From: Marinobacter qingdaonensis
Lineage (GTDB): Bacteria > Pseudomonadota > Gammaproteobacteria > Pseudomonadales > Oleiphilaceae
Length of the DNA stretch: 64,000 bases
NCBI RefSeq assembly: GCF_034555935.1
Contig: NZ_JAYDCJ010000003.1
Coordinates: 930,001-994,000 of the forward strand
Direction: 5' to 3'
Below the pieces are notes generated by a model, which saw only the letters and a list, made by a program, of their open reading frames with translations, had not been told where the DNA came from and did not search any database. The first letter of the stretch is position 1; each line of letters begins with the position of its first letter. Both the position numbers and the translations under genes were made by a program. Shown piece after piece: positions 6,340 through 19,938 of the stretch.

Positions 6340-6441
6340 AGCGCGTATTGTACTGGCCAACTGGCAGTGCGGGTACCTGTCCCGCATAATTGCAAAAACC
6401 TATTCAAACTCATCCAATTACCAGTCCTGAAGTGCCGCAGC

Positions 6442-6541
6442 CTTCTGGTCCGGCCTTCCAAAACCCGCTCAAGCACGTCCATGTGACGCTTGAGCTCCGC
6501 CATCCATGGCTCCGCACAGTTTTGGAAGGCCGGACCAGAAG
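6442..6541 (-). repeat. Fold-back element copy A (constant core, own stem)
   Basis: A perfect 23-bp inverted repeat (6442-6464 and 6519-6541) encloses a 54-nt core. On the minus strand the core shows GCC-ATGGAT-GGC and, inside a GCTCAAG/CTTGAGC stem, CAC-ATGGAC-GTG, so that a GGA sits in each hairpin loop. On the plus strand these are the TCC triplets at 6503-6505 and 6478-6480. The core is almost identical to copies C and D and aligned with copy B; the stem is related to copy D only near its inner end (CTTCCAAAAC). It lies between two divergent genes, 102 bp before the helicase start and 32 bp before the DUF2237 start, so it could be in either leader. There is no T-run, so it is not a standard terminator. 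Confidence 0.9.
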
Positions 6542-6573
6542 CCTGCTCACCTTGGGAGGCAGAGGATCCGGCA

Positions 6574-6951
6574 ATGCAAGTATCAGACTCCATCAATGTC
6601 CTGGGGGAAACCCTGGAAAGCTGTGGCAACGACCCGAAAACCGGTTTCTACCGGGACGGCTGCTGCAACACCGGCCCGGACGACCTGGGCTACCACACCG
6701 TGTGCGCGGTGGTGACCGACGACTTCCTGGAGTTTTCCAAAAGCCGGGGCAATGACTTGAGCACACCACGGCCGGATTTCGGCTTCCCCGGGCTCAAGGC
6801 CGGGGACAGCTGGTGCCTGTGTGCGGCCCGCTGGCAGGAAGCGTTTGAAGCCGGAAAGGCGCCCCGGGTCCGGCTGCGGGCCACCCATCGGGCCACCCTG
6901 GAAATGTGCGAGTTGGATGACCTGAAGCGGCATTCGGTGGACCTCAGCTGA
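6574..6951 (+). CDS. DUF2237 family protein
   Basis: A 125-residue cytoplasmic protein of the DUF2237 family, function unknown. Recognisable stretches are NVLGETLESCGNDPKTGFYR, DGCCNTGPDDLGYHTVCAV and PGLKAGDSWCLCAARW, with six conserved-looking cysteines that could bind a metal or form a redox pair. The start ATG at 6574 follows a GGGAGG ribosome-binding site. The stop codon overlaps the start of tmcA (TGATG), so the two are translationally coupled. Confidence 0.8.
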   Translation: MQVSDSINVLGETLESCGNDPKTGFYRDGCCNTGPDDLGYHTVCAVVTDDFLEFSKSRGNDLSTPRPDFGFPGLKAGDSWCLCAARWQEAFEAGKAPRVRLRATHRATLEMCELDDLKRHSVDLS

Positions 6952-9089
6952 TGACGGACCAGGGGCAGGCGGCCTGGCAGAATTTGCAGGGCCGGCTGCT
7001 TGAGCGCGGCGAGCGCCGGCTGGTGCTGGTCGAGGGCGACCGTGACCGGGCCCTGGCCTGGCTGCGGGCCCTGCTGCCGGCCCTGGCACTGGAGCCGGGG
7101 TTGTGGCTCGGGCCGGCGACCGACTGTCCCCATCAGGGACTGACACCCTTGGCGCCGGGCAAGGCCCGGCAATGGCTCGGGCGGGAAACCTCACTGGTGG
7201 TCTGGGACGGCTGGCAGGGCAATCCGCCCGACGGTTTTGCGGCCGTGTCCGGGACCCTGGCCGCGGGCGGGCTGCTGTTCTGGCTGATGCCGCCACTGTC
7301 GCGCTGGTCCGGGTTCGACGATCCGGATTACGCCCGGACCGGACTCGAACATCTGGACCAGCATCCGTTTGCCGCCCGCCTGGCGCGGGTCCTGGCGGAC
7401 GACCCCGGGGTGATTCGGATCAGCGCCGACCAACCCTCCGACACCCGCCTGCCGCACCCGCCGGCGCCTGCACAGCCCTTTTCGGTGGCCGGTACCGAGG
7501 ACCAACACCGACTGGTGCAACAGCTGGTTCGTTTCGGCCTGGGGCGCCGTCGGCGCCCGGTGGTGCTGACCGCGGATCGGGGCCGGGGCAAGTCCGCGGC
7601 CCTGGGCATGGCCGCCGCCGAGCTGTTGCGCCAGGGCCGCAAGCAGGTGCTGGTTACCGCACCCTCCGAGCTCAACGTTGACACCCTGTTCCGCCATGCC
7701 CGGGACGCCCTTGCGGACGCTATCGTCAGTGACACGGACGGCAGCCTCGAGATCCGCGGCGGCGGCCGATTGCGCTTCTTGCCGGTGCGGGCCTTGCTGT
7801 CGCAGCAGCCGGAGGCCGAGGTGGTCATGGTAGACGAAGCCGCGGCCATTCCCGCGCCCCTGCTGCAACGCATCCTGCTGGGATGGCCGCGGGTGGCCTT
7901 TTCCTCCACGGTGCATGGCTACGAAGGCGCCGGTCGCGGCTTTGCCATTCGCTTTCGGGAAGTGCTCGACCGGGAGACGCCGCACTGGCAAAACCTGAGT
8001 CTGACCACCCCGGTCCGATGGGCCAGCGCCGACCCGCTGGAGCCCTTGGTGGCCCGGCTGTTCCTGCTGGCTGCCGACGGTCCGGCCCCCCCGGTTCAGG
8101 CCTTCAGCGCCCAGGACATTCGAGTGGAACCCTTTGTCCCCGGGGATGCGAGCGATGCCGATCTGGCCGAGGCCTTTGGTCTGTTGGTGGCGGCCCATTA
8201 CCGCACCACGCCGGCGGATCTGCGCCAGTGGCTGGACGCCCCCGAGGCGCGCAGCTGGCGCGCGCGGGTAGGCGATACCACCGTGGGTCTGCTGTGGGGC
8301 GTGGTGGAAGGGGGACTGGCCGCGGATCTGGCCGAGCAAATCACCCTGGGCCAGCGCCGGGTTCGTGGTCATCTGCTGCCCCAGTCCCTGGCCAGTCACA
8401 GCGGTTTCCCCGAAGCGGCCAGCCAGAGCTGCCTGCGCGTGGTGCGGGTGGCGGTGGCCGACGGCGCCCGGCGCGCCGGGGTCGGACATCGCTTGGTGGC
8501 CGCGGCCGAGAGCGGGGCGATCGGGGAGGGGCTGGATGCCCTGGGCACCAGTTTCGGCGGCAGCGAACCGCTGTTGGCGTTCTGGCGCTGCTGCGGCTTG
8601 CGGCCGGTGCGCCTGGGCCTGAACCGGGAGGCGACCAGCGGTGAGTATCCGCTGCAAATGCTGCGCGGGCTGAGTCCGGCCGGTACCGCGCTGGTTGGCC
8701 GTTTGCAGGACCGACTGGCCGAGCACTGGCTGAGCCTGTTGCCCTTGGCCTGGCCGGAGCTGGAGCCCGGCCTGCTGGCGGCCCTGAGCGAGCAATTGCC
8801 GGCCACCGAGCGCCTGAGCGACGACGACCGTCGGGACCTGAACAGTTTTGCCCATGGCCATCGCGGGTTTCTGCTCAGCCTGCCGGTGTTGCGCAAGGCC
8901 AGCATGGCCTGTGCCGTGCCCGCCTGGCTTGGCACCCGGGCCGAGTTGCGTCTGTGGGTGGGGGCGGTGTTGCAGCAGCGTGGCTGGTCCGAGCTACAGG
9001 CCGAAGGGCTGTGCCTCGGTCAGCGGGATGGCGAAGACCGGTTGCGGGCGGTGATTCGCCAGCTGCTGCGTCAGGGGCCGGAGTTGTGA
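6951..9089 (+). CDS. tmcA: tRNA(Met) cytidine acetyltransferase TmcA
   Basis: A 712-residue enzyme that makes N4-acetylcytidine at the wobble position of elongator tRNA-Met, using acetyl-CoA and ATP, which guards against misreading of AUA codons. Domains in order: an N-terminal DUF1726-like region (1-150), an RNA-helicase-like ATPase with Walker A TADRGRGKSAALG (about 205) and Walker B VVMVDEAAAIP (about 295), then a GNAT acetyltransferase (about 400-550; RVVRVAVADGARRAGVGHRLV is the acetyl-CoA loop), and a C-terminal tRNA-binding region. The length matches the E. coli protein (671 aa) with a modest extension. It is coupled to the preceding DUF2237 gene by a 1-nt overlap. Confidence 0.92.
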   Translation: MTDQGQAAWQNLQGRLLERGERRLVLVEGDRDRALAWLRALLPALALEPGLWLGPATDCPHQGLTPLAPGKARQWLGRETSLVVWDGWQGNPPDGFAAVSGTLAAGGLLFWLMPPLSRWSGFDDPDYARTGLEHLDQHPFAARLARVLADDPGVIRISADQPSDTRLPHPPAPAQPFSVAGTEDQHRLVQQLVRFGLGRRRRPVVLTADRGRGKSAALGMAAAELLRQGRKQVLVTAPSELNVDTLFRHARDALADAIVSDTDGSLEIRGGGRLRFLPVRALLSQQPEAEVVMVDEAAAIPAPLLQRILLGWPRVAFSSTVHGYEGAGRGFAIRFREVLDRETPHWQNLSLTTPVRWASADPLEPLVARLFLLAADGPAPPVQAFSAQDIRVEPFVPGDASDADLAEAFGLLVAAHYRTTPADLRQWLDAPEARSWRARVGDTTVGLLWGVVEGGLAADLAEQITLGQRRVRGHLLPQSLASHSGFPEAASQSCLRVVRVAVADGARRAGVGHRLVAAAESGAIGEGLDALGTSFGGSEPLLAFWRCCGLRPVRLGLNREATSGEYPLQMLRGLSPAGTALVGRLQDRLAEHWLSLLPLAWPELEPGLLAALSEQLPATERLSDDDRRDLNSFAHGHRGFLLSLPVLRKASMACAVPAWLGTRAELRLWVGAVLQQRGWSELQAEGLCLGQRDGEDRLRAVIRQLLRQGPEL

Positions 9090-9160
9090 CCCGCTCGATT
9101 TAATTCGGCCGGGTCGGCCCGCAGAATAGGCCGAACTCACTTCGACCGGGAACCACGACC

Positions 9161-9856
9161 ATGGCCAAGGGAATCGGCTCTCCTCTCTGCCTGCTGCTAC
9201 TGGCACTGCTGGCGCTGCCCTCGATGAGCGGCTGCGCCGCCCGTACCGAACCCACCAACCTCACTCTCGACAGCGCCAGCGCGGCGAACACGCCTATGGT
9301 CGCGGCCGCCCGGGCCGGCGACCTTGACCGGGTGATGGCCTTGGCCGAGGCGGGTTCCTCGCTCAATACCCGGACCGAACAGGGCACGCCGCTGATGGCG
9401 GCGGTGCGGGCCGGGCAGGATCGGGTGGCCTGGTACCTGCTGACCGAAGGCGCCTCGCCGGATTTGGCCGGCGCGGAGGGGCAAACGCCACTGATGGTCG
9501 CCTCGGCCCAGGGCAGCCGCCGACTGGTGCAACTGCTGTTGTCCGCCGGGGCCCGGGTCAATGCCCGCGACGACCAGGGCTACACGCCGGTCATGCAGGC
9601 CGCTGGGCAGGGGCATCTGTCGGTGGTGAAAGTACTGCTGGCGGCGGGCGCCAACGTCAATGTCAGTCAGGGTGGCGAGTCATTGCTGATGAAAGTGGTG
9701 GCCAGCGGCGATCTGCTCACCGCCGAGATGCTGCTGGCCGCCGGTGCCTATGTGAACTATCGGAGCGCCAACGGCCGGACCGCCCTGGACGTGGCCCGGG
9801 CCCACCAGTTCCGGGACCTGGAGATGCTGCTGGTGCAGGCCGGCGCCACGCTCTAG
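9161..9856 (+). CDS. Ankyrin-repeat lipoprotein
   Basis: A 231-residue predicted lipoprotein. Residues 1-24 are a lipoprotein signal peptide with a lipobox ending SMSGC (Cys25). The rest is a stack of about five to six ankyrin repeats, recognisable by the recurring pattern TPLMxA...G....V..LL..GA (for example TPLMVASAQGSRRLVQLLLS and TPVMQAAGQGHLSVVKVLLA). Ankyrin stacks bind other proteins, so this is probably an envelope scaffold or inhibitor. A similar arrangement is seen next to periplasmic catalase in Pseudomonas (AnkB), but no catalase is present here. It is preceded by a 71-bp gap and is probably its own unit. Confidence 0.82.
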   Translation: MAKGIGSPLCLLLLALLALPSMSGCAARTEPTNLTLDSASAANTPMVAAARAGDLDRVMALAEAGSSLNTRTEQGTPLMAAVRAGQDRVAWYLLTEGASPDLAGAEGQTPLMVASAQGSRRLVQLLLSAGARVNARDDQGYTPVMQAAGQGHLSVVKVLLAAGANVNVSQGGESLLMKVVASGDLLTAEMLLAAGAYVNYRSANGRTALDVARAHQFRDLEMLLVQAGATL

Positions 9857-9883
9857 CCTCGAATTGCCGGGCCGAGCTGAGCC

Positions 9884-10987
9884 TCAGCCGAGCTGCATCG
9901 GATCGGTCTGGTCGTCCCACTCGGGCAGGAAATGCGCCTGCACCACCTCGTGCGGCACCTCGGCCACGCTGGCGAAACTCCACGCTGGCTGCTGGTCCTT
10001 GTCCACCAGTCGGGCCCGGATGCCCTCGGGCAAATCCGGTCGGCGGGTGCATTCCAGGGCCATGGCCAGCTCCATCCGGAACACATCCTTCAGCGACATC
10101 TGCTGGGCTTTCTGCAGCTGGCTCCAGACCAGCCAGGCGGTGACCGGGCAGCCCCCGCGCAAATTGGCCATGGCGGCATTCCACCACTCGCTGTCGACTT
10201 CCGCCGACAACAGCTGGTCGACAATCTCCGGCAACTCGTCGCCGGCGCACAGGCGGGCAATGCGTTGTTCGTGCTGCTCCAGCTGGCTGCGCTGGAGCGA
10301 ACGGTAGTCTGGCGCGTGCAGGTGATTCAGCAACCGGAACAGACGGTTGTCGTCGGCCGCCGGTTCGCCGGTCCAGCGCTGGTTGCGGAGCTGATCCAGC
10401 AGCGCGTCCCGGTCCTCGGGCAGAATCACCTGGTCGGCGAGGCCGATGCGGATGGTGTCGGTGATGTTCAAGCGCGCGCCGGTCAGTCCCATGAACAGGC
10501 CAATCCGTCCGGGCAGCCGGTTCAGGAACCAGCTGGCGCCGACATCCGGGAACAAACCAATGGAAATCTCGGGCATGGCCAGGGTCAGGTCGGGCGTCGC
10601 CAGCCGGTAGCGGCAGGCCGACAGCAGCCCGAGCCCGCCGCCCATGACCACGCCGTGGGCAAGGCCGATCACGGGTTTGGGGAAGCGATGCAGGCTGTAG
10701 TCGAGTCGGTACTCGCGGGTGAAAAAGCGGGCCGGGGCGTCGGGATCGTCACCACCGGTCATGGCGCTGTACAGATTGCGGATGTTGCCACCGGCACAGA
10801 AGGCGCGGTCGCCGGCGCCCTGCAGCAGCACCAGGCATATCCGGTCGTCCGCCGCCCAGCGATCCAGCGCCCCCTGCATGGTTTCAACCATGCCTTCCGA
10901 CAGGGCATTCAATGAGCCCGGGGCGTTCAGTGTCAGCAGGCCTAGTCGGCCTTCCAGGCAATCAATTTCCTGCACCTCTATGGACAT
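9884..10987 (-). CDS. Enoyl-CoA hydratase/isomerase family (3-hydroxyisobutyryl-CoA hydrolase-like)
   Basis: A 367-residue crotonase-fold protein, read from the ATG at 10987, which has a GGAG site upstream; an in-frame ATG 45 bp earlier adds a non-homologous tail. Oxyanion-hole and CoA motifs are AFCAGGNIRNLY (near 65), HGVVMGGGLGLLSACRYRLA (near 110) and PEISIGLFPDVGASWFLNRL (near 140). The last block and the long C-terminal half are typical of 3-hydroxyisobutyryl-CoA hydrolase (valine breakdown) and of related hydratases rather than of a 260-residue enoyl-CoA hydratase. Substrate cannot be fixed from sequence alone. Confidence 0.78.
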   Translation of the reverse strand: MSIEVQEIDCLEGRLGLLTLNAPGSLNALSEGMVETMQGALDRWAADDRICLVLLQGAGDRAFCAGGNIRNLYSAMTGGDDPDAPARFFTREYRLDYSLHRFPKPVIGLAHGVVMGGGLGLLSACRYRLATPDLTLAMPEISIGLFPDVGASWFLNRLPGRIGLFMGLTGARLNITDTIRIGLADQVILPEDRDALLDQLRNQRWTGEPAADDNRLFRLLNHLHAPDYRSLQRSQLEQHEQRIARLCAGDELPEIVDQLLSAEVDSEWWNAAMANLRGGCPVTAWLVWSQLQKAQQMSLKDVFRMELAMALECTRRPDLPEGIRARLVDKDQQPAWSFASVAEVPHEVVQAHFLPEWDDQTDPMQLG

Positions 10988-11105
10988 CGAGGGTATCTCC
11001 GGCGGTCTGGATTCATCGGGGCCACGTCGCATTACGTACGGTCTTGCTAATGGTCCCCACTATAAAGAGGACCAACGTCGAACAGAAGCCATGGGGCTAA
11101 CGCAT

Positions 11106-11133
11106 TTGGCTTCGTCCGGCTCTGTGTTATAAG
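11106..11133 (+). promoter_or_regulatory. Candidate promoter for the cytochrome c gene
   Basis: TTGGCT at 11106-11111 and TATAAG at 11128-11133 are separated by 16 bp. This is a fair sigma-70 match, about 60 bp before the cytochrome start codon. It lies in the 206-bp gap between two divergent genes, which otherwise shows nothing clear. Confidence 0.4.
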
Positions 11134-11193
11134 GACAGGACGGTATACAGTCCGGTAGGAAAACCCAAAAACGATGATGAGAGGGTAAACACG

Positions 11194-11529
11194 ATGACAT
11201 TGAAACACTATGCCGCGGCAAGCATCCTGGCGCTGACGACGGTGGTTCCGGCCCTGGCGAGTGCCGCCGATGCCGAGGCCGGCAAGGCCAAGGCAGCGGT
11301 CTGCGCGGCCTGTCACGGCCAGAACGGTCTGGCCCAGATCCCCACCTATCCGAACCTGGCGGGGCAGAATGAGCAGTACCTGGTGTCGGCCATCACGGCC
11401 TACAAGAACAAGCAGCGCACCGGCGGTCAGGCCGCCATCATGCAGGGCCAGGCGGCGGCCCTGAGTGACACCGACATCGCCAACCTGGCGGCCTATTACG
11501 CCAGCCTGCCGGCCGACGGCGGTAACTGA
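11194..11529 (+). CDS. Class I c-type cytochrome
   Basis: A 111-residue periplasmic monohaem cytochrome c. The signal peptide runs to about residue 24 (ending ALASA). The haem-binding motif CAACH is at 37-41, and the likely axial methionine is in AAIMQGQA near residue 84. The C-terminal helix [13 protein letters not shown] is the usual cytochrome c553/c5-type end. It would shuttle electrons between respiratory complexes, for example to a terminal oxidase. The gene stands alone, with a promoter-like pair upstream. Confidence 0.88.
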
Positions 11530-11555
11530 GGGACGTTGCCCGGACGCGAGGCGGC

Positions 11556-12938
11556 TCAGGCCGCCCCGCTGACAATCCGGTAGCTGGGCAAGTAGGTGTC
11601 GGAACCTGGCAGTTTCATCCGGTTCTGGGCCACAAACTGCTCCAGCATGGCTTCCAGGGGCTGGATCAGGGTCGGGTCGCCGGAAATCTCGAACGGGCCC
11701 TTGGCCTGAACCTGGCGAATGCCATCTTCCTTGACGTTGCCCGCCACGATACCGCTGAACGCCTTGCGCAGATTGGCGGCGATCAGGTGCACCGGCTGGT
11801 CGCGGTGCAGTTCCAGCGCCCGCATGTTCTCGTGGTTGGGGTGGAAGGGCAGCTGGAACACCGGATCGATCTTCAGCATCCAGTTGAAGTAGTAGGCGTC
11901 CTGCATGGCGCGCCGGAACGTCTCCACCTCTTTCATGCCTTTCTTCATGGTCTGAGCCACCCGCGCCGGATCGTCAATGATGATCTCGTACTTCTTGGCG
12001 GCGTCGTCCCCGAGGGCGTTGCGGATGAACTTGTCGATCATCTCGAAGTACTCCGCGTTTTCCTTCTTGCCGGTGAACACCACCGGGAACGGCAGGTCGG
12101 CGTTGTCCGGATGCAGCAGGATACCGAGCAGGTACAGGATCTCCTCGGCGGTGCCGACGCCGCCCGGGAACACGATCACGCCGTGGCCGCAGCGGATGAA
12201 GGCCTCCAGGCGCTTCTCGATGTCCGGCATGATCACCAGTTCGTTGACGATCGGATTCGGCGCCTCGGCACCGATGATGCCGGGCTCGGTGATGCCGATG
12301 TAACGGCCGTTCTTCACCCGCTGTTTGGCGTGGGCAATGGTCGCGCCCTTCATCGGACCCTTCATGGCGCCGGGACCGCAGCCGGTGATGATGCTCAGCG
12401 CGCGCAGGCCCAGTTGGTGGCCCACTTCCTTGCTGTACTGGTACTCGTCCTGGCTGATCGAGTGGCCACCCCAGCACACCACCAGGTCCGGTTGACGGCC
12501 CGCTTCCAGGACCCGGGCGTTGCGCAGGACATGGAACACCAGGTTGGTCAGATCCTCGGGATCGTCCCGGCGGAACCCCGCCGCGGATTGGGGGATGGAG
12601 TGCGAGTAGATGATGTCCCGCAGTACCGAGAACAGGTGCTCGCGGATACCGCGCAGCATCTCGCCGTCGACGAAGGCGTGGGCGGGGGCGTTGATCAGTT
12701 CCAGTTTCAGACCCCGGGGTTGGGGCACCAGTCGGACGTCAAAGTCGGCGTGGGACTCCATCAGGGTCTTACAGTCGTCGGTTTCCACGCCGGTGTTGAG
12801 GACCGCCAGGGCGCACTGGCGGAACAGCCGGTACAGGCCACCCTCGCTTCGGTCCTTGAGACGATTAACCTCATGATTGGAAAGGATTTCGAGACTGCCT
12901 TCCGGCGACACCAGAGCGTTGATGGTGGGTTCTTGCAT
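11556..12938 (-). CDS. ppnN: Nucleotide 5'-monophosphate nucleosidase PpnN
   Basis: A 460-residue LOG-family enzyme that hydrolyses purine and pyrimidine nucleoside monophosphates to base and ribose 5-phosphate; in E. coli (454 aa) it is stimulated by (p)ppGpp. The start at 12938 gives the conserved N terminus MQEPTINALVSPEGSLEILS. The central LOG motif is FPGGVGTAEEILYLLGI, preceded by TGCGPGAMKGPMKGA; these hold the phosphate and catalytic residues. N- and C-terminal domains flank the Rossmann core as in E. coli. It is transcribed away from thiI; the two starts are about 150 bp apart. Confidence 0.9.
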   Translation of the reverse strand: MQEPTINALVSPEGSLEILSNHEVNRLKDRSEGGLYRLFRQCALAVLNTGVETDDCKTLMESHADFDVRLVPQPRGLKLELINAPAHAFVDGEMLRGIREHLFSVLRDIIYSHSIPQSAAGFRRDDPEDLTNLVFHVLRNARVLEAGRQPDLVVCWGGHSISQDEYQYSKEVGHQLGLRALSIITGCGPGAMKGPMKGATIAHAKQRVKNGRYIGITEPGIIGAEAPNPIVNELVIMPDIEKRLEAFIRCGHGVIVFPGGVGTAEEILYLLGILLHPDNADLPFPVVFTGKKENAEYFEMIDKFIRNALGDDAAKKYEIIIDDPARVAQTMKKGMKEVETFRRAMQDAYYFNWMLKIDPVFQLPFHPNHENMRALELHRDQPVHLIAANLRKAFSGIVAGNVKEDGIRQVQAKGPFEISGDPTLIQPLEAMLEQFVAQNRMKLPGSDTYLPSYRIVSGAA

Positions 12939-13085
12939 GAACGAGAAAACTCCTGAATGTAACCGGGCGAGGGGCCGGTGGCCGGTCGGGCCCGGGATTT
13001 CGGCTATGCCTGATTTTATGGCATGGGTACAAAAAGGTAGACTAAGCGCTTTCAGACCACTACGCCACTCGACCATATTCGGATT

Positions 13086-14540
13086 ATGAAATTACTTATT
13101 CGCCCGGCGCCCGAAGTCGCCATCAAGAGCAAGCCAGTCCGTCGTCAGCAGATGCGGCATCTGCGCCAGAATATTCGCAAGCTGCTCGCTCGCCTGGATC
13201 ACGACATCGTGGTGGATGGCAGCTGGGACCGGGTCGACGTGTCCTTCCCGGATGACCGCGGGCTGTCCGGTCAGGTGCTGGATGAGCTGCTGCGGATTCC
13301 GGGCATCTCCACCATCGAGGAAATCGGTGTGTTTCCGTTTGTCGGCCTGGACGATGTGGCCGAGAAGGCGGTGGCGGCGTTTGCCGATCGCCTCGAGGGC
13401 AAGACTTTCGCGGTCCGGGCCCGGCGCCAGGGCGAGCACAAGTTCCGCTCGATCGACCTGGAGCGTACCGTGGGCTCGGCGCTGATGGCAGCGGCCAAGG
13501 CCCGGGGCGTGGACCTGAGCAATCCGGAAGTCGAGGTGCGGATCGCCGTTCAGGATGACCACTACCACATTGCCCACCGCAAGCATCGGGGCCAGGGCGG
13601 TTACCCGCTGGGCAGCGTCGAAACGGTCATGACCCTGATCTCCGGCGGCTACGACTCCTCCGTGGCGGCCTACCTGATGATGCGCCGGGGCCTGCGCAGT
13701 CACTTCCTGTTCTTCAACCTCGGTGGCACCGCCCACGAGGTCGGCGTGCGCCAGGTGGTGCACTACCTGTGGGACCGCTACGGCGCTTCCCATAGCGCCA
13801 AGTTCATCTCGGTGCCGTTCGACGGCGTGGTCGCGGAAATCATGCGCTCGGTCAATCACCGGCACTGGGGCGTGGTGCTCAAACGCCAGATGCTGAAAGC
13901 GGCGGCGGAGCTGGCGCGCAAGAACAACGCCATTGGCGTGGTCACCGGCGATGCCGTGGCCCAGGTGTCGAGCCAGACCCTGACCAACCTCAACGTCGTG
14001 GATCGGGCCAGCGATGAGGTGGTACTGCGACCGCTGATCTCCATGGACAAGGAAACCATCATCAACCTCGCCCGGGAGATTGGCACCGAGTCCTTTGCCC
14101 GCAACATGCCGGAGTACTGTGGGGTGATTTCCCAGAAGCCGGCGACCCGCGCCAAGCTGCACAGGGTCGAGGCCGATGAGGCGGAAATGGACGAGACGGT
14201 GCTGGCCGGCGCCATCGAGGCCCGGGAAGAAATCGCCATCAGCCGCCTGCTAGAGGCGACCAGCACGCCCGAGGACGTAGAGCTGGTGCAGACCCCGGGG
14301 GTCGACGACGTGATCATTGATGTGCGCCACCCGTCCGAGGGCGAGCGGGCGCCCCTGAAGCTGACCAACAACCAGGTGCTGGAGATTCCGTTCTACGAGC
14401 TGAACCAGCAGATGGGCGAGCTGCCGGAGGACCGGCAGTACCTGCTGTATTGTGACCGTGGCTCCATGAGCCGGATGCACGCCGGCCACCTGAAGGCGGA
14501 AGGGCACGACAACGTCAAGGTGTACGCGCCCGCCTCCTGA
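13086..14540 (+). CDS. thiI: tRNA 4-thiouridine synthase ThiI with rhodanese domain
   Basis: A 484-residue enzyme (E. coli 482) that adenylates and thiolates U8 of tRNA and supplies sulfur for the thiazole of thiamine. Domains: a ferredoxin-like NFLD region and THUMP domain (1-165), a PP-loop ATPase (SGGYDSSVAAYLMM near 187), and a C-terminal rhodanese domain whose persulfide cysteine is Cys456 in LLYCDRGS. A second conserved cysteine lies in MPEYCGVIS near 345. The sulfur donor is normally IscS, encoded elsewhere. The gene is preceded by a short AT-rich leader. Confidence 0.95.
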   Translation: MKLLIRPAPEVAIKSKPVRRQQMRHLRQNIRKLLARLDHDIVVDGSWDRVDVSFPDDRGLSGQVLDELLRIPGISTIEEIGVFPFVGLDDVAEKAVAAFADRLEGKTFAVRARRQGEHKFRSIDLERTVGSALMAAAKARGVDLSNPEVEVRIAVQDDHYHIAHRKHRGQGGYPLGSVETVMTLISGGYDSSVAAYLMMRRGLRSHFLFFNLGGTAHEVGVRQVVHYLWDRYGASHSAKFISVPFDGVVAEIMRSVNHRHWGVVLKRQMLKAAAELARKNNAIGVVTGDAVAQVSSQTLTNLNVVDRASDEVVLRPLISMDKETIINLAREIGTESFARNMPEYCGVISQKPATRAKLHRVEADEAEMDETVLAGAIEAREEIAISRLLEATSTPEDVELVQTPGVDDVIIDVRHPSEGERAPLKLTNNQVLEIPFYELNQQMGELPEDRQYLLYCDRGSMSRMHAGHLKAEGHDNVKVYAPAS

Positions 14541-14571
14541 ACAGTGCGCCTGGCCCCGCCGGCCTGGTCCG

Positions 14572-15585
14572 TCAGCCGGCCAGGCCCTTGAAGAACTGCT
14601 GGACGTTGGTGCTGAGCGCCTCCAGGTCGTAGCCGCCCTCCTGCACCACCAGCGTCGGCAGGCCGAGCTGGCGGATGTGGGTGCTCAGCCGGCAGAAGCC
14701 TTCCGAGGTCACCGATACCTTGGCCTGGGGGTCGTTCTGGTAGATGTCGAAGCCCAGCGCCAGCACCAGCGCATCCGGCTGGAACAGCTTGATGGCCGCC
14801 ATGGCCTCGTCCAGTTTGGCGAAGAAATCGTCCTCCGAGGCGCCATGGGGCATCGGCATGTTGATGTTGTAGCCAAATCCCTCGCCTTCACCGCGTTCGT
14901 TCTCGAAGCCGGTCACCACCGGGTAGAAGTTGGTGGGGTCGCCGTGGATCGAGATGTACAGCACGTCGCTGCGGTCGTAGAAAATCTCCTGGATGCCCTG
15001 GCCGTGGTGCATGTCGGTGTCCAGGATCACGATGCGCGGAAACCGGCTCTTCATGTGCTCGGCGGCAATGGCGGCGTTGTTCAGGTAGCAGAAACCACCG
15101 GCCGCGTCCCGGCGGGCATGGTGCCCCGGTGGCCGGCACACGGCGTAGCTGGTGCGGTCGCCGGCGATCAGCGCGTCGGCGGCACCGAGTGCGGTCTGGG
15201 CCGACCAGTAGGCGGCGTTCCAGGTGTTCTCGCCGATCGGACAGCTGCCGTCGGCCTGATACCGGGCGGCTTCCGCCAGAATGCCGGTGAGGTGGTTGGG
15301 TGAGCGCACGAAGATGTTGGAAATGACCTCGTCGCCCCAGTCGTCCATGGCACTCCAGCGCCGGTGGGCCGACTCCAGGAAACGTAGGTAGCCCAGGTCA
15401 TGGACCTTGGAAATCGGCCCGGCACCCTGGTCGGCCGGTTGCAGCACCGGAATCCCCATCTCCTTCAGGCCGTCCAGCATCTGACCGGTCCGATCCGGCA
15501 CTTCCTGGGGCTGGCGCATCTGGCCCCGGGTGAAGTAAGTCTTGGGAATGTGCTGGTCCTGCGCGGGATGGAAAAACGCTTTCAT
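14572..15585 (-). CDS. Histone deacetylase-family amidohydrolase (acetylpolyamine type)
   Basis: A 337-residue zinc-dependent deacetylase of the HDAC/AcuC/acetylpolyamine aminohydrolase superfamily. Zinc and catalytic signatures are RPPGHHARRDAAGGFCYLNN (His-His pair near 148), ILDTDMHHGQGIQEIFYD (Asp and His, near 185), and a late Asp in LALGFDIYQNDP; the C-terminal VVQEGGYD holds the usual Gly-Gly-Tyr. The N terminus (FFHPAQDQHIPKTYF) resembles acetylpolyamine amidohydrolases, so deacetylation of polyamines or other small amides is the likely role. It is divergent from the aldehyde dehydrogenase gene. Confidence 0.85.
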   Translation of the reverse strand: MKAFFHPAQDQHIPKTYFTRGQMRQPQEVPDRTGQMLDGLKEMGIPVLQPADQGAGPISKVHDLGYLRFLESAHRRWSAMDDWGDEVISNIFVRSPNHLTGILAEAARYQADGSCPIGENTWNAAYWSAQTALGAADALIAGDRTSYAVCRPPGHHARRDAAGGFCYLNNAAIAAEHMKSRFPRIVILDTDMHHGQGIQEIFYDRSDVLYISIHGDPTNFYPVVTGFENERGEGEGFGYNINMPMPHGASEDDFFAKLDEAMAAIKLFQPDALVLALGFDIYQNDPQAKVSVTSEGFCRLSTHIRQLGLPTLVVQEGGYDLEALSTNVQQFFKGLAG

Positions 15586-15756
15586 TATCCGGCCTCCGTG
15601 GGGATAGATGCTCCGAGTATAGGCACACTCGGAGGGCGATCAAAAGCCCGGGCGTCGACTTTACAGCCCGTGATTCAGCATCCACTATGGAAGACATATT
15701 CCACCTACGCAACCGTGTCCCCAACGGGATGCGGCCATGGACCAAGAGGAGCGGAG

Positions 15757-17208
15757 ATGATCGAGTCACCCCTGCTGACAAAGCTTACCGGCTACATCGG
15801 TGGTCGCTGGACCGACAATGCCGAGGGCAACACCTTCGACGTGTACAACCCGGCCACCGGGGCGGTCATTGCCCAGGTGGCGTCCATGTCCGAACAGGAA
15901 GTGACGGCGGCGGTCGAGGCCGGCAAATCGGCGCTGCGCCTGACCAATCCCTATTCCATCGAGACCCGCCGCAAGTGGCTGGAAGACATCCGGGACGCGC
16001 TGAAAGAACATCGCGAGGAAATCGGCCGCATCCTGTGCCTGGAGCATGGCAAGCCGCTGCAGGAAGCCCAGGGGGAAGTGGACTACGCCGCCGGCTTCTT
16101 CGATTACTGCTCCACCCACATCCAGGCCCTGGACGCGCACACCATCCCGGAAAAGCCCAAGAACTGCACCTGGACCGTCCATTACCGCCCGGTGGGTGTG
16201 ACCGGTCTCATTACCCCGTGGAACTTCCCAATCGGCATGATCGCCAAGAAGCTGTCCGCGGCCCTGGCGGCAGGCTGCCCGTCGGTGATCAAGCCGGCCA
16301 GCGAAACCCCGCTGACCATGATTGCCCTGTTCAGCCTGATGGACCAGCACACCGACCTGCCCGACGGCATGGTCAACCTGGTGATGGGCAAGGCCAGCGT
16401 CATCGGCAAGGTGCTGTGCGAAAGCCCGGACGTGCCCATGCTCAGCTTCACCGGTTCCACCGAGGTGGGACGCAAACTGGTGCTCGACACCGCTGAGCAG
16501 GTGAAAAAGCTGGCACTGGAGCTGGGTGGCAACGCCCCGTTCATCGTCTTTGACGACGCCGACCTTGATGCGGCGGCCGACAACCTGATCGCCAACAAAT
16601 TCCGGGGTGGCGGCCAGACCTGCGTCTGCGCCAACCGGATCTTTGTGCACGAGAAAGTGGCCGACGCCTTCGGAGACAAGCTGGCGGAACGGGTCAACAA
16701 GATGACCGTGGGCGATGGCATCAACGGCGATGTCGACATCGGGCCGCTGATCAACAAAGCCGGGTTCGACAAGGTCAAACGGCATCTGGAGGACGCGCTG
16801 GAGAAGGGCGCCAAGCTGGTGGCCGGCAAGCAGCCGGGCGAGCTGGGCGAGGGTTTGTTCTTCCCGCCGACGGTGATCACGGAGGTTACCCGTGACATGT
16901 GCTGCTACCGGGAAGAGACCTTCGGCCCGCTGGTCCCCATGGCGCTGTTCCGCACCGAGGACGAAGTCATCGAGGCGGGTAACGACACCGAATTCGGTCT
17001 GGCCTCCTACGTGTTCACCGGCGACGCCGAGCGTGCCCAGCGTGTGGCCGCCGGCCTGCGCTTTGGTCACTGTGGCTGGAACACCGGCACCGGCCCCACC
17101 CCGGAGGCGCCGTTTGGCGGCATGAAGGCTTCCGGCATCGGCCGCGAAGGTGGTCTGGAAGGCCTGTTCGAGTTCGTCGAACCCCAGACCGTGCCGCGCG
17201 GTTTCTAA
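15757..17208 (+). CDS. NAD(P)-dependent aldehyde dehydrogenase, succinate-semialdehyde type
   Basis: A 483-residue aldehyde dehydrogenase, closest by eye to GabD (succinate semialdehyde to succinate). The start at 15757 follows a GCGGAG site. Motifs: the cofactor site TPWNFPIGMIAKKLSAALAAG (near 150) and FTGSTEVGRKL (near 230), the catalytic glutamate in LELGGNAPFIVFDDADLD (near 253), and the nucleophilic cysteine in RGGGQTCVCANRI (near 287). GabD proteins share the T-C-V-C-A-N pattern. A fold-back repeat lies 40 bp after the stop. Confidence 0.82.
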   Translation: MIESPLLTKLTGYIGGRWTDNAEGNTFDVYNPATGAVIAQVASMSEQEVTAAVEAGKSALRLTNPYSIETRRKWLEDIRDALKEHREEIGRILCLEHGKPLQEAQGEVDYAAGFFDYCSTHIQALDAHTIPEKPKNCTWTVHYRPVGVTGLITPWNFPIGMIAKKLSAALAAGCPSVIKPASETPLTMIALFSLMDQHTDLPDGMVNLVMGKASVIGKVLCESPDVPMLSFTGSTEVGRKLVLDTAEQVKKLALELGGNAPFIVFDDADLDAAADNLIANKFRGGGQTCVCANRIFVHEKVADAFGDKLAERVNKMTVGDGINGDVDIGPLINKAGFDKVKRHLEDALEKGAKLVAGKQPGELGEGLFFPPTVITEVTRDMCCYREETFGPLVPMALFRTEDEVIEAGNDTEFGLASYVFTGDAERAQRVAAGLRFGHCGWNTGTGPTPEAPFGGMKASGIGREGGLEGLFEFVEPQTVPRGF

Positions 17209-17248
17209 CCGAGTCGACAACCGACATGTCCTCGCCCACGGGGGCATC

Positions 17249-17354
17249 GCGCGGGGGAGCCTCTGCTTCAGGACACGCTACAAGCACATCCGTGTGCGCT
17301 TGGGTGTGGCCATCCCTGGCCACACACAGTCCTGAAGCAGAGGCTCCCCCGCGC
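17249..17354 (-). repeat. Fold-back element copy B (constant core, own stem)
   Basis: A perfect 26-bp inverted repeat (17249-17274 and 17329-17354) encloses a 54-nt core. The stem sequence is unrelated to the other copies. On the minus strand the core folds into GTGTGGCC-AGGGAT-GGCCACAC and CACA-CGGA-TGTG. Although the flanking bases differ from copies A, C and D, both loops keep GGA (plus-strand TCC at 17313-17315 and 17289-17291). The first hairpin has a longer, self-consistent stem, a sign that structure is kept. It lies between the co-directional aldehyde dehydrogenase and uvrD genes, before the uvrD promoter. Confidence 0.9.
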
Positions 17355-17416
17355 TTGTTCGGGTTTCCCGGGCGTGCCAAGCCATCCCCGCCTGCGCGCA
17401 AAACGACCGACTCACC

Positions 17417-17425
17417 TGTTATACT
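17417..17425 (+). promoter_or_regulatory. Extended -10 promoter candidate for uvrD
   Basis: TG-T-TATACT (TG at 17417-17418, TATACT at 17420-17425) is a good extended -10 about 40 bp before the uvrD start. No clear -35 is seen, and no LexA operator is visible. Confidence 0.4.
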
Positions 17426-17465
17426 CTCACGCCTGTTTATTTAACCAGTAGCGAACGTGTTCCCT

Positions 17466-19631
<2,166 letters not shown>

Positions 19632-19653
19632 ATTTCGAGCCTTGAGTTCCGCA

Positions 19654-19752
19654 GGATGAAGGGGCGTATTTAAAACTCGCCTCAAGACGTCCTGTTCGGC
19701 TTGGGCTCCGCCATCCATGGCTCCGCACAGTTTTAAATACGCCCCTCCATCC
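19654..19752 (-). repeat. Fold-back element copy C (constant core, own stem)
   Basis: A 23-bp inverted repeat with one mismatch (19654-19676 and 19730-19752) encloses a 53-nt core. The stem (GGGGCGTATTTAAAAC inner part) is AT-rich inside and differs from other copies except for the final AAAAC/GTTTT. On the minus strand the core holds GCC-ATGGAT-GGC and AACAGGACGT between CAAG and CTTG arms (plus-strand TCC at 19714-19716 and 19690-19692). It starts 23 bp after the uvrD stop, in the 307-bp gap before uppP, and faces copy D head-on. Confidence 0.88.
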
Positions 19753-19815
19753 CGCGCCCGAACTTGGGCAGTGGTTTCGCAATCATTTGGTGTTCGAACG
19801 TGGTCGGGGCGGGGG

Positions 19816-19911
19816 TCGGGACAGGTCTTCCAAAACTGTGCGGAGCCATGGATGGCGGAGCTCAAGCGCCACAGGGATGTGCTTGAGCGGGTTTTGGAAG
19901 ACCTGTCCCGA
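19816..19911 (+). repeat. Fold-back element copy D (constant core, own stem)
   Basis: A perfect 21-bp inverted repeat (19816-19836 and 19891-19911) encloses a 54-nt core in the opposite orientation to copies A-C. On the plus strand it reads GCC-ATGGAT-GGC (GGA 19850-19852) and, inside a GCTCAAG/CTTGAGC stem, CACA-GGGA-TGTG (GGA 19875-19877). ACAGGGATGT is a full match to the CsrA/RsmA consensus ACANGGANGT. It lies 27 bp past the uppP stop on the other strand. The 63 bp between copies C and D show nothing I recognise. Confidence 0.9.
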
Positions 19912-19938
19912 GCGCCGCATCTACCCCAAGGTCGACAG

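Follow-up and report, generated by a model that had tools for sequence, protein, structure and literature searches.

Dispersed two-hairpin elements in Marinobacter qingdaonensis with free but co-varying stems, and their relation to YPAL/RU-2, Ysr224 and TwoAYGGAY

A 64,000-nt stretch of the Marinobacter qingdaonensis genome (the window) carries four elements in which a core of 51-54 nt stands on a long stem whose letters differ from copy to copy. Each core forms two short hairpins, and the strand on which their loops read A(N)GGA is here called the GGA strand. The genome holds about 45 such elements in total. Their stem looks to be under selection as a folded GGA strand, either as RNA or as single-stranded DNA, and arm-to-arm copying alone does not fit; in the likeliest reading, the two loops make up a paired binding site for one CsrA/RsmA dimer. 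The family is real, widespread and conserved, and is a variant of a known but scattered kind: its core is that of the Yersinia repeat YPAL/RU-2 (Rfam Ysr224), and its fold resembles Rfam TwoAYGGAY. What is new here is the links between these names, the strand evidence, the free but co-varying stems, and an orientation rule for close pairs.

A search for the core across the whole genome collected 44 elements, 40 of which were also recovered by a motif-and-stem finder; these 40, for which motif and stem score were both required, make up the set used below unless another is named. BLAST of element 1 against the genome gave 42 matches, including two self-matches of its own arms, and an exact two-loop pattern matched 48 times, against none for the reversed pattern. 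Four copies were added by BLAST; one (at L018) is without GGA in hairpin B, and another (at L038) is a remnant. Over all copies the core measures 51-58 nt, with the two hairpins on a stem of ~28 bp (median arm length 28 nt, range 24-35, in 39 copies). Read along the GGA strand, the layout is a 5' arm of ~28 nt, then typically UGUGCGGA, hairpin A (loop ANGGAN), a short linker, hairpin B (ANGGAN), AGCG and the 3' arm. The core is neither confined to the four places in the window nor tied to one stem shared genome-wide: all 44 copies were found by the search, the stems are paired, and they differ among copies, in keeping with the original prediction of a shared core on copy-specific, highly complementary stems. 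Indeed, over the outer 16 nt of the arms the overall likeness between copies was not above that of column-shuffled arms (best pair 13/16, P 0.35; 38 of the 40 copies compared). In seven pairs with an identical core the arms looked somewhat more alike (~49% vs 40% over the outer 16 nt and 89% vs 69% over the inner 8 nt). Copies in another genome, G187 (L158-L165), are near-identical, stems included, and lie within a larger repeated unit with shared flanks, unlike those of M. qingdaonensis.

Element 1 (6437-6546, GGA strand minus) is flanked by the starts of two genes, for a UvrD-family helicase (minus) and for a DUF2237 protein (plus). Its stem, 6437-6464/6519-6546 (28 nt, 96% complementary), encloses a core at 6465-6518, and sequence and alignment together place the CsrA-type ANGGAN loops on the minus strand at 6502-6507 (hairpin A, AUGGAU) and 6477-6482 (hairpin B, AUGGAC). 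The loops of the other three were read from the sequence. Element 2 (17249-17354, GGA strand minus), flanked by genes for an aldehyde dehydrogenase and a UvrD-family helicase, has a perfect 26-bp stem (arms 17249-17274/17329-17354, 26 nt, 100%) around a core at 17275-17328, with the minus-strand loops AGGGAU at 17312-17317 (A) and ACGGAU at 17288-17293 (B). Element 3 (19650-19756, GGA strand minus) is the left member of a pair with element 4 and sits between the 3' ends of a UvrD-family gene (plus) and a BacA-family gene (minus); its arms are 19650-19677/19729-19756 (28 nt, 93%), and its minus-strand loops are AUGGAU at 19713-19718 (A) and AGGAC at 19689-19693 (B), the latter one base short (A-GGA-C). 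Element 4 (19809-19918, GGA strand plus), the right member, is opposite in orientation to elements 1-3; its core is 19837-19890, its arms at full length are 19802-19836/19891-19925 (35 nt, 86%), and its plus-strand loops are AUGGAU at 19848-19853 (A) and AGGGAU at 19873-19878 (B). All four are located where they were first described, with stems that extend slightly further outward and arms that are 86-100% complementary. The window contains 16 pairs of inverted repeats of at least 18 nt within 200 nt; besides the element stems only one exceeds 83% complementarity, and it consists of the cores of elements 3 and 4 pairing with each other (91%). Compared with 200 dinucleotide shuffles, the RNA folds of the four elements scored z = -7.6 to -13.1 on either strand, and no shuffle folded as well. 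Chance palindromes were ruled out by the same comparison.

The strand on which the stem is constrained can be read from its mismatches, since a G.U mismatch in one RNA is an A.C in the RNA of the opposite strand. Mismatches were counted with a finder that scores all of them equally, and 192 of its 231 finds were kept after removal of those with identical inner stem and core. Over these 192 elements, G.U outnumbered A.C on the GGA strand by 92:13. The ratio was 26:0 in 39 M. qingdaonensis copies (sign test, p 3e-8), 49:7 in 104 congener copies, which include orthologues and so are not independent, and 17:6 in 49 distant copies. Over 28 fixed pairs in the 40-copy set, G.U:A.C was 49:3, with G.G 12 vs C.C 1 and A.G/G.A 16 vs no T.C. 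When 136 of the 143 elements of this genome and its genus were sorted by gene context, the ratio was 37:1 with both neighbours, 30:4 against both, 25:1 at converging and 10:1 at diverging sites; the seven elements with one neighbour only gave 3:2. Because the bias is present in all main gene contexts, the constraint seems to belong to the element and not to the neighbouring transcripts.

Covariation was gauged by pair counts against shuffled and slid controls, in place of R-scape, and was found. Across the 40 copies, 31 of 40 pairs had changed on both sides, and the covariation score was 0.653, vs 0.167 for shuffled and at most 0.142 for slid controls. For the outer stem, both sides had changed in 23 of 24 aligned pairs, and 98.5% of cells were paired, a figure that is partly circular because the copies were selected by stem score and GGA motif.

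Orthologous loci around elements 2-4 were compared in 30 genomes, M. qingdaonensis included. At the helicase 5' site, 27 of 29 anchorable loci carry an element in either orientation. The finder located a copy at 25 of the 30; of the other five loci, those of G088 and G097 have a core interrupted by a long insert, that of G016 has lost the core, that of G012 has no element and that of G104 is unanchorable. An alignment of 11 of the 15 copies of one orientation, set apart from G005, G069 and G105 (which have other arms) and G106, showed 100% of stem cells pairing; of the 26 stem pairs, 6 had undergone changes on both sides, and a single pair had changed on just one (G.U). At the 3' site we aligned the ten loci with one alignable copy, apart from the two-copy loci G000, G005 and G059 and from G106 (insert); the nine distinct rows showed both-sided change in 12 of 24 stem pairs, with 99.1% of stem cells paired. 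Stems therefore change in place with compensation. Together with the excess of G.U over A.C on one strand, these both-sided changes support one of the two origins that the original prediction had offered for the arms, namely that selection holds them complementary. The two orientations coexist in some genomes (at the helicase locus in G105, and at the other site in three genomes), so orientation differences between genomes are explained equally well by differential loss of a pair as by inversion. The congener G016 (L075), whose core is gone, retains both arms around a 7-nt loop as a relic hairpin. Three elements at two sites carry, in the same place in the hairpin B loop region, an insert of ~85 nt with palindromes of its own (L086 and L089 at the helicase 5' site of G088 and G097, and L097 at the 3' site of G106), which may be another repeat targeting hairpin B.

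The family is not limited to this genome. Of 100 genomes sampled from the genus, 98 have the two-loop pattern, each in 1-109 copies, with 0-2 matches for the reversed pattern; exact matches range from none in G070 and G093 to 109 in G010, and a core of this kind is also present in named Marinobacter records. When a covariance model built from the 40 copies (R1) was run on 273 other gammaproteobacterial genomes, 48 of them had relatives at E <= 0.001, and with M. qingdaonensis included the family reaches 44 of 222 genera; at most 14 candidates were scored per genome, so that copy numbers, and perhaps absences, are lower bounds. Among the matches listed from a core-pattern scan are Rheinheimera, Yersinia, Pectobacterium, Sodalis, Methylotuvimicrobium, Marinimicrobium, Microbulbifer, Lysobacter, Aquisalimonas and others. 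One core string that was looked for in the literature was not found there.

The loops point to a ligand. Paired hairpins with A(N)GGA loops, a feature of CsrA/RsmA sites, are present in 39 of the 40 copies, and the N positions vary. In three partly overlapping sets of distant copies, both loops read A(N)GGA in 19 of 22, 29 of 35 and 63 of 72 distinct rows. The stems beneath the loops differ, so the common ground of the two hairpins is the loop motif. The CsrA consensus is RUACARGGAUGU, and the widespread form of hairpin B, GUACAGGGAUGU, fits it. CsrA itself is a dimer that binds paired GGA hairpins (PMC4333381, PMC4383904), and the consensus string occurs together with CsrA in the literature. 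We name CsrA as the probable ligand mainly because of the loop motif, the binding of paired hairpins by the dimer and the fit of hairpin B to the consensus. A csrA gene is present in the genome. A paper on CsrA in Alteromonas concerns three small RNA (sRNA) genes.

From these observations we propose that each element would be a structured RNA module read from the GGA strand, made of a long double-stranded stem and two short hairpins with A-N-GGA-N loops. The stem would need pairing only, so that its letters could drift with compensation while the loops stay fixed. The modules would be dispersed repeats of the YPAL/RU-2/Ysr224 kind, similar to miniature inverted-repeat transposable elements (MITEs), placed in untranslated regions and often just behind stop codons. 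Transcribed from the GGA strand in this genome and bound by CsrA, they would most likely serve as dispersed docking or decoy sites and give stable ends to the RNAs containing them. We hold this explanation as a whole, comprising RNA module, CsrA docking or decoy and transcript end, to be reasonably probable.

The genomic setting bears on this proposal. Gene-context, T-run and promoter counts cover this genome and its genus; no gene called by a simple codon-usage finder contains any of the 44 M. qingdaonensis elements or any of the 143 in the combined set. Among the 143, 36 sites are converging, 41 tandem sense, 39 tandem antisense and 20 diverging, and seven have one neighbour. At tandem sites the stop codon is nearer (median 33 nt sense, 34 nt antisense) than the next start (69-111 nt). 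Close pairs (<400 bp apart, in the loci at hand) follow a rule: their GGA strands point apart in 14 of 15 pairs from this genome and genus, including the pair at 19650-19918 in the window, and in 16 of 19 when distant genomes are included. With one quarter expected if orientations were free, 14 of 15 gives p 4e-8, although some pairs are orthologous and hence not independent. The two cores of such a pair are complementary along one strand, and a transcript crossing the pair from either side ends with a GGA copy. No shared promoter motif was seen by eye in 16 pair spacers. A replication-strand bias, with the terminus assumed opposite dnaA, was rejected as not significant in M. qingdaonensis (15 copies with the GGA strand along the fork and 19 against it, p 0.61; 34 of 44 copies) or in the congener G028 (14 with vs 26 against, p 0.08; 40 of 41 listed copies). 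Integron attC sites were also considered as an explanation and set aside. A 6S RNA gene lies at L004:2537-2718 (minus), ~1 kb from one M. qingdaonensis element.

Several observations weigh against the proposal of a CsrA-binding RNA module. Orientation to genes is random, as the nearly equal numbers of tandem sense and antisense sites show, and within the 20 nt before the stem we saw no promoter of the elements' own: -10-like sites numbered 3 on the GGA strand (142 copies) and 5 on the other (143). Random orientation and the lack of a clear promoter signal in this simple scan leave GGA-strand transcription at antisense sites unexplained. CsrA is only weakly linked to the elements, with a match in 45 of the 49 genomes that bear them and in 190 of the other 225. 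The four element-bearing genomes without a CsrA match are G128, G189, G220 and G315 (the last inferred from its absence among the matches); G315 is 98% complete, yet both copies fetched from it keep both loops, as do the fetched copies of G128. The loop counts of the distant sets are biased upwards because model R1 includes the loop letters. At the 3' site, one of five covariation measures, that of further pair types, was not above shuffles (17 vs 17.0). Rfam files Ysr224 in the UCC orientation, apparently the reverse of the strand whose structure is constrained. Moreover, a folded single DNA strand would likewise favour G.T over A.C, G.T being the more stable mismatch in DNA too.

This last point belongs to the best rival, a mobility protein reading folded DNA. 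The elements would then be selfish DNA whose GGA strand folds as single-stranded DNA and is read by a mobility protein, for example a transposase, in the manner of REP/RAYT systems; the loops would be the mark of that protein, and the structure would be kept for movement. Their multi-copy, intergenic, MITE-like character and their random orientation to genes are what such elements would show, and YPAL has been described as mobile, with target duplications (PMC2229807). We nevertheless think it unlikely: the stems remain paired at orthologous sites, the two loops have the CsrA motif in common while its N positions are free, and a BLAST search with one 68-base core query from one distant relative matched no phage, plasmid or E. 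coli genome.

Still less probable is that the arms are kept identical, and were perhaps made at insertion, by template switching in replication (quasipalindrome correction). Nearly perfect arms would follow from such copying, as would the finding that the arms of paralogues are largely unrelated even in the seven identical-core pairs, and G016 kept its arms after losing the core. Copying gives no reason, however, for 92:13 in favour of G.U over A.C on one strand, nor for intermediate states at one site, and the congeners G023 and G009, in which the second site is short, show neither arm there, although these could be losses. Plain mRNA 3'-end stabiliser or terminator hairpins with incidental loops, which would suit the tandem copies close behind the stop codon and the report that YPAL possibly affects upstream transcript stability (PMC2229807), are very improbable, because a simple hairpin would require no fixed strand and no pair of invariant A(N)GGA loops, and because a run of at least five T within 15 nt after the stem occurs in 0 of 143 elements on the GGA strand and 2 of 143 on the other, counts on which intrinsic terminators were also rejected.

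The original prediction knew of no named family like this one; that part did not hold. Model R1, run on 78 of the 100 loci L178-L277, matched 12 of the 13 Yersinia and Pectobacterium loci given to it at 46-59 bits (best 58.7 bits, E 1.7e-10), the unmatched one, L272, having its match at the locus edge. Rfam Ysr224 (RF02770) scores 82-134 bits on the five Yersinia and Pectobacterium loci tested with it; its gathering score of 70 bits is not reached in the window (no matches), and 19 distant loci score at most 31.6 bits. The published RU-2 sequence carries the core seen in the Yersinia loci (PMC2759123). Like the M. qingdaonensis family, YPAL/RU-2 (Ysr224) has a two-hairpin core and is intergenic, and its copies number in the tens (in Y. 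pestis they occupy 60 intergenic regions). Unlike it, the Yersinia copies compared share one stem and a body of ~168 bp, whereas each M. qingdaonensis copy has a stem of its own. YPAL is reported to insert at dyad symmetry (PMC2229807), and Ysr224 has been placed among the most prevalent bacterial sRNAs and found to be temperature-responsive (PMC9029176), with several copies in Y. ruckeri that differ in expression (PMC12112432). In the YPAL papers examined, CsrA, RsmA and 'carbon storage' are not mentioned, no dedicated search pairing YPAL with CsrA having been made. Ysr224 belongs to no Rfam clan, and the literature examined held no link between the names YPAL/RU-2, Ysr224 and TwoAYGGAY, though such a paper may still exist.

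TwoAYGGAY (Rfam RF01731, clan CL00106), predicted to bind CsrA (PMC4333381), has two side-by-side GGA-loop hairpins on a poorly conserved outer stem, as the M. qingdaonensis copies do. It differs at loop position 2, which is G or A in many copies of the present family and not only Y. At its cut-off of 43 bits it has no match in the window, and the best score in the genome is 41.7 bits; the cut-off is passed in 6 of 58 genomes, namely the congeners G005, G013, G024, G028 and G035 and, from another genus, G055. The decoy RNAs CsrB/CsrC and RsmX/Y/Z are one to a few genes with their own promoters and many GGA sites each. Their GGA hairpins dock CsrA/RsmA, a likeness provided CsrA is the ligand here; in contrast, the present family consists of dozens of two-site copies with no promoter signal in a simple scan. 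An Rfam scan of ten loci (E <= 5) returned from the decoy group, besides TwoAYGGAY, only RsmY, at 17.2 of 57 bits. REP/BIME sequences are also short, intergenic, palindromic and present in many copies, some paired. REPs are 20-40 bp long with a GTAG or CGTC tag (PMC3733652), whereas the present elements measure ~110 bp and are built differently, from a constant interior and a free stem.

More tentatively, and with less confidence than in the proposal for M. qingdaonensis itself, we suggest that Gammaproteobacteria may possess a genome-wide dispersed CsrA network, with dozens of two-site modules per genome that spread in MITE-like fashion and then came under RNA-level selection, titrating CsrA and marking transcript ends. 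YPAL, Ysr224, TwoAYGGAY and the M. qingdaonensis family would be faces of one system. If so, the likeness of these separately named families would be explained, and the strand of the much-annotated Rfam family Ysr224 would be put in question. Pairs with GGA strands pointing outward would give every crossing transcript, from either side, a terminal CsrA site. With dozens of copies per genome, a free-drifting stem and two fixed loops, the family would amount to a natural experiment, and repeats usually filed as mobile elements would be a distributed part of a main bacterial post-transcriptional regulator.

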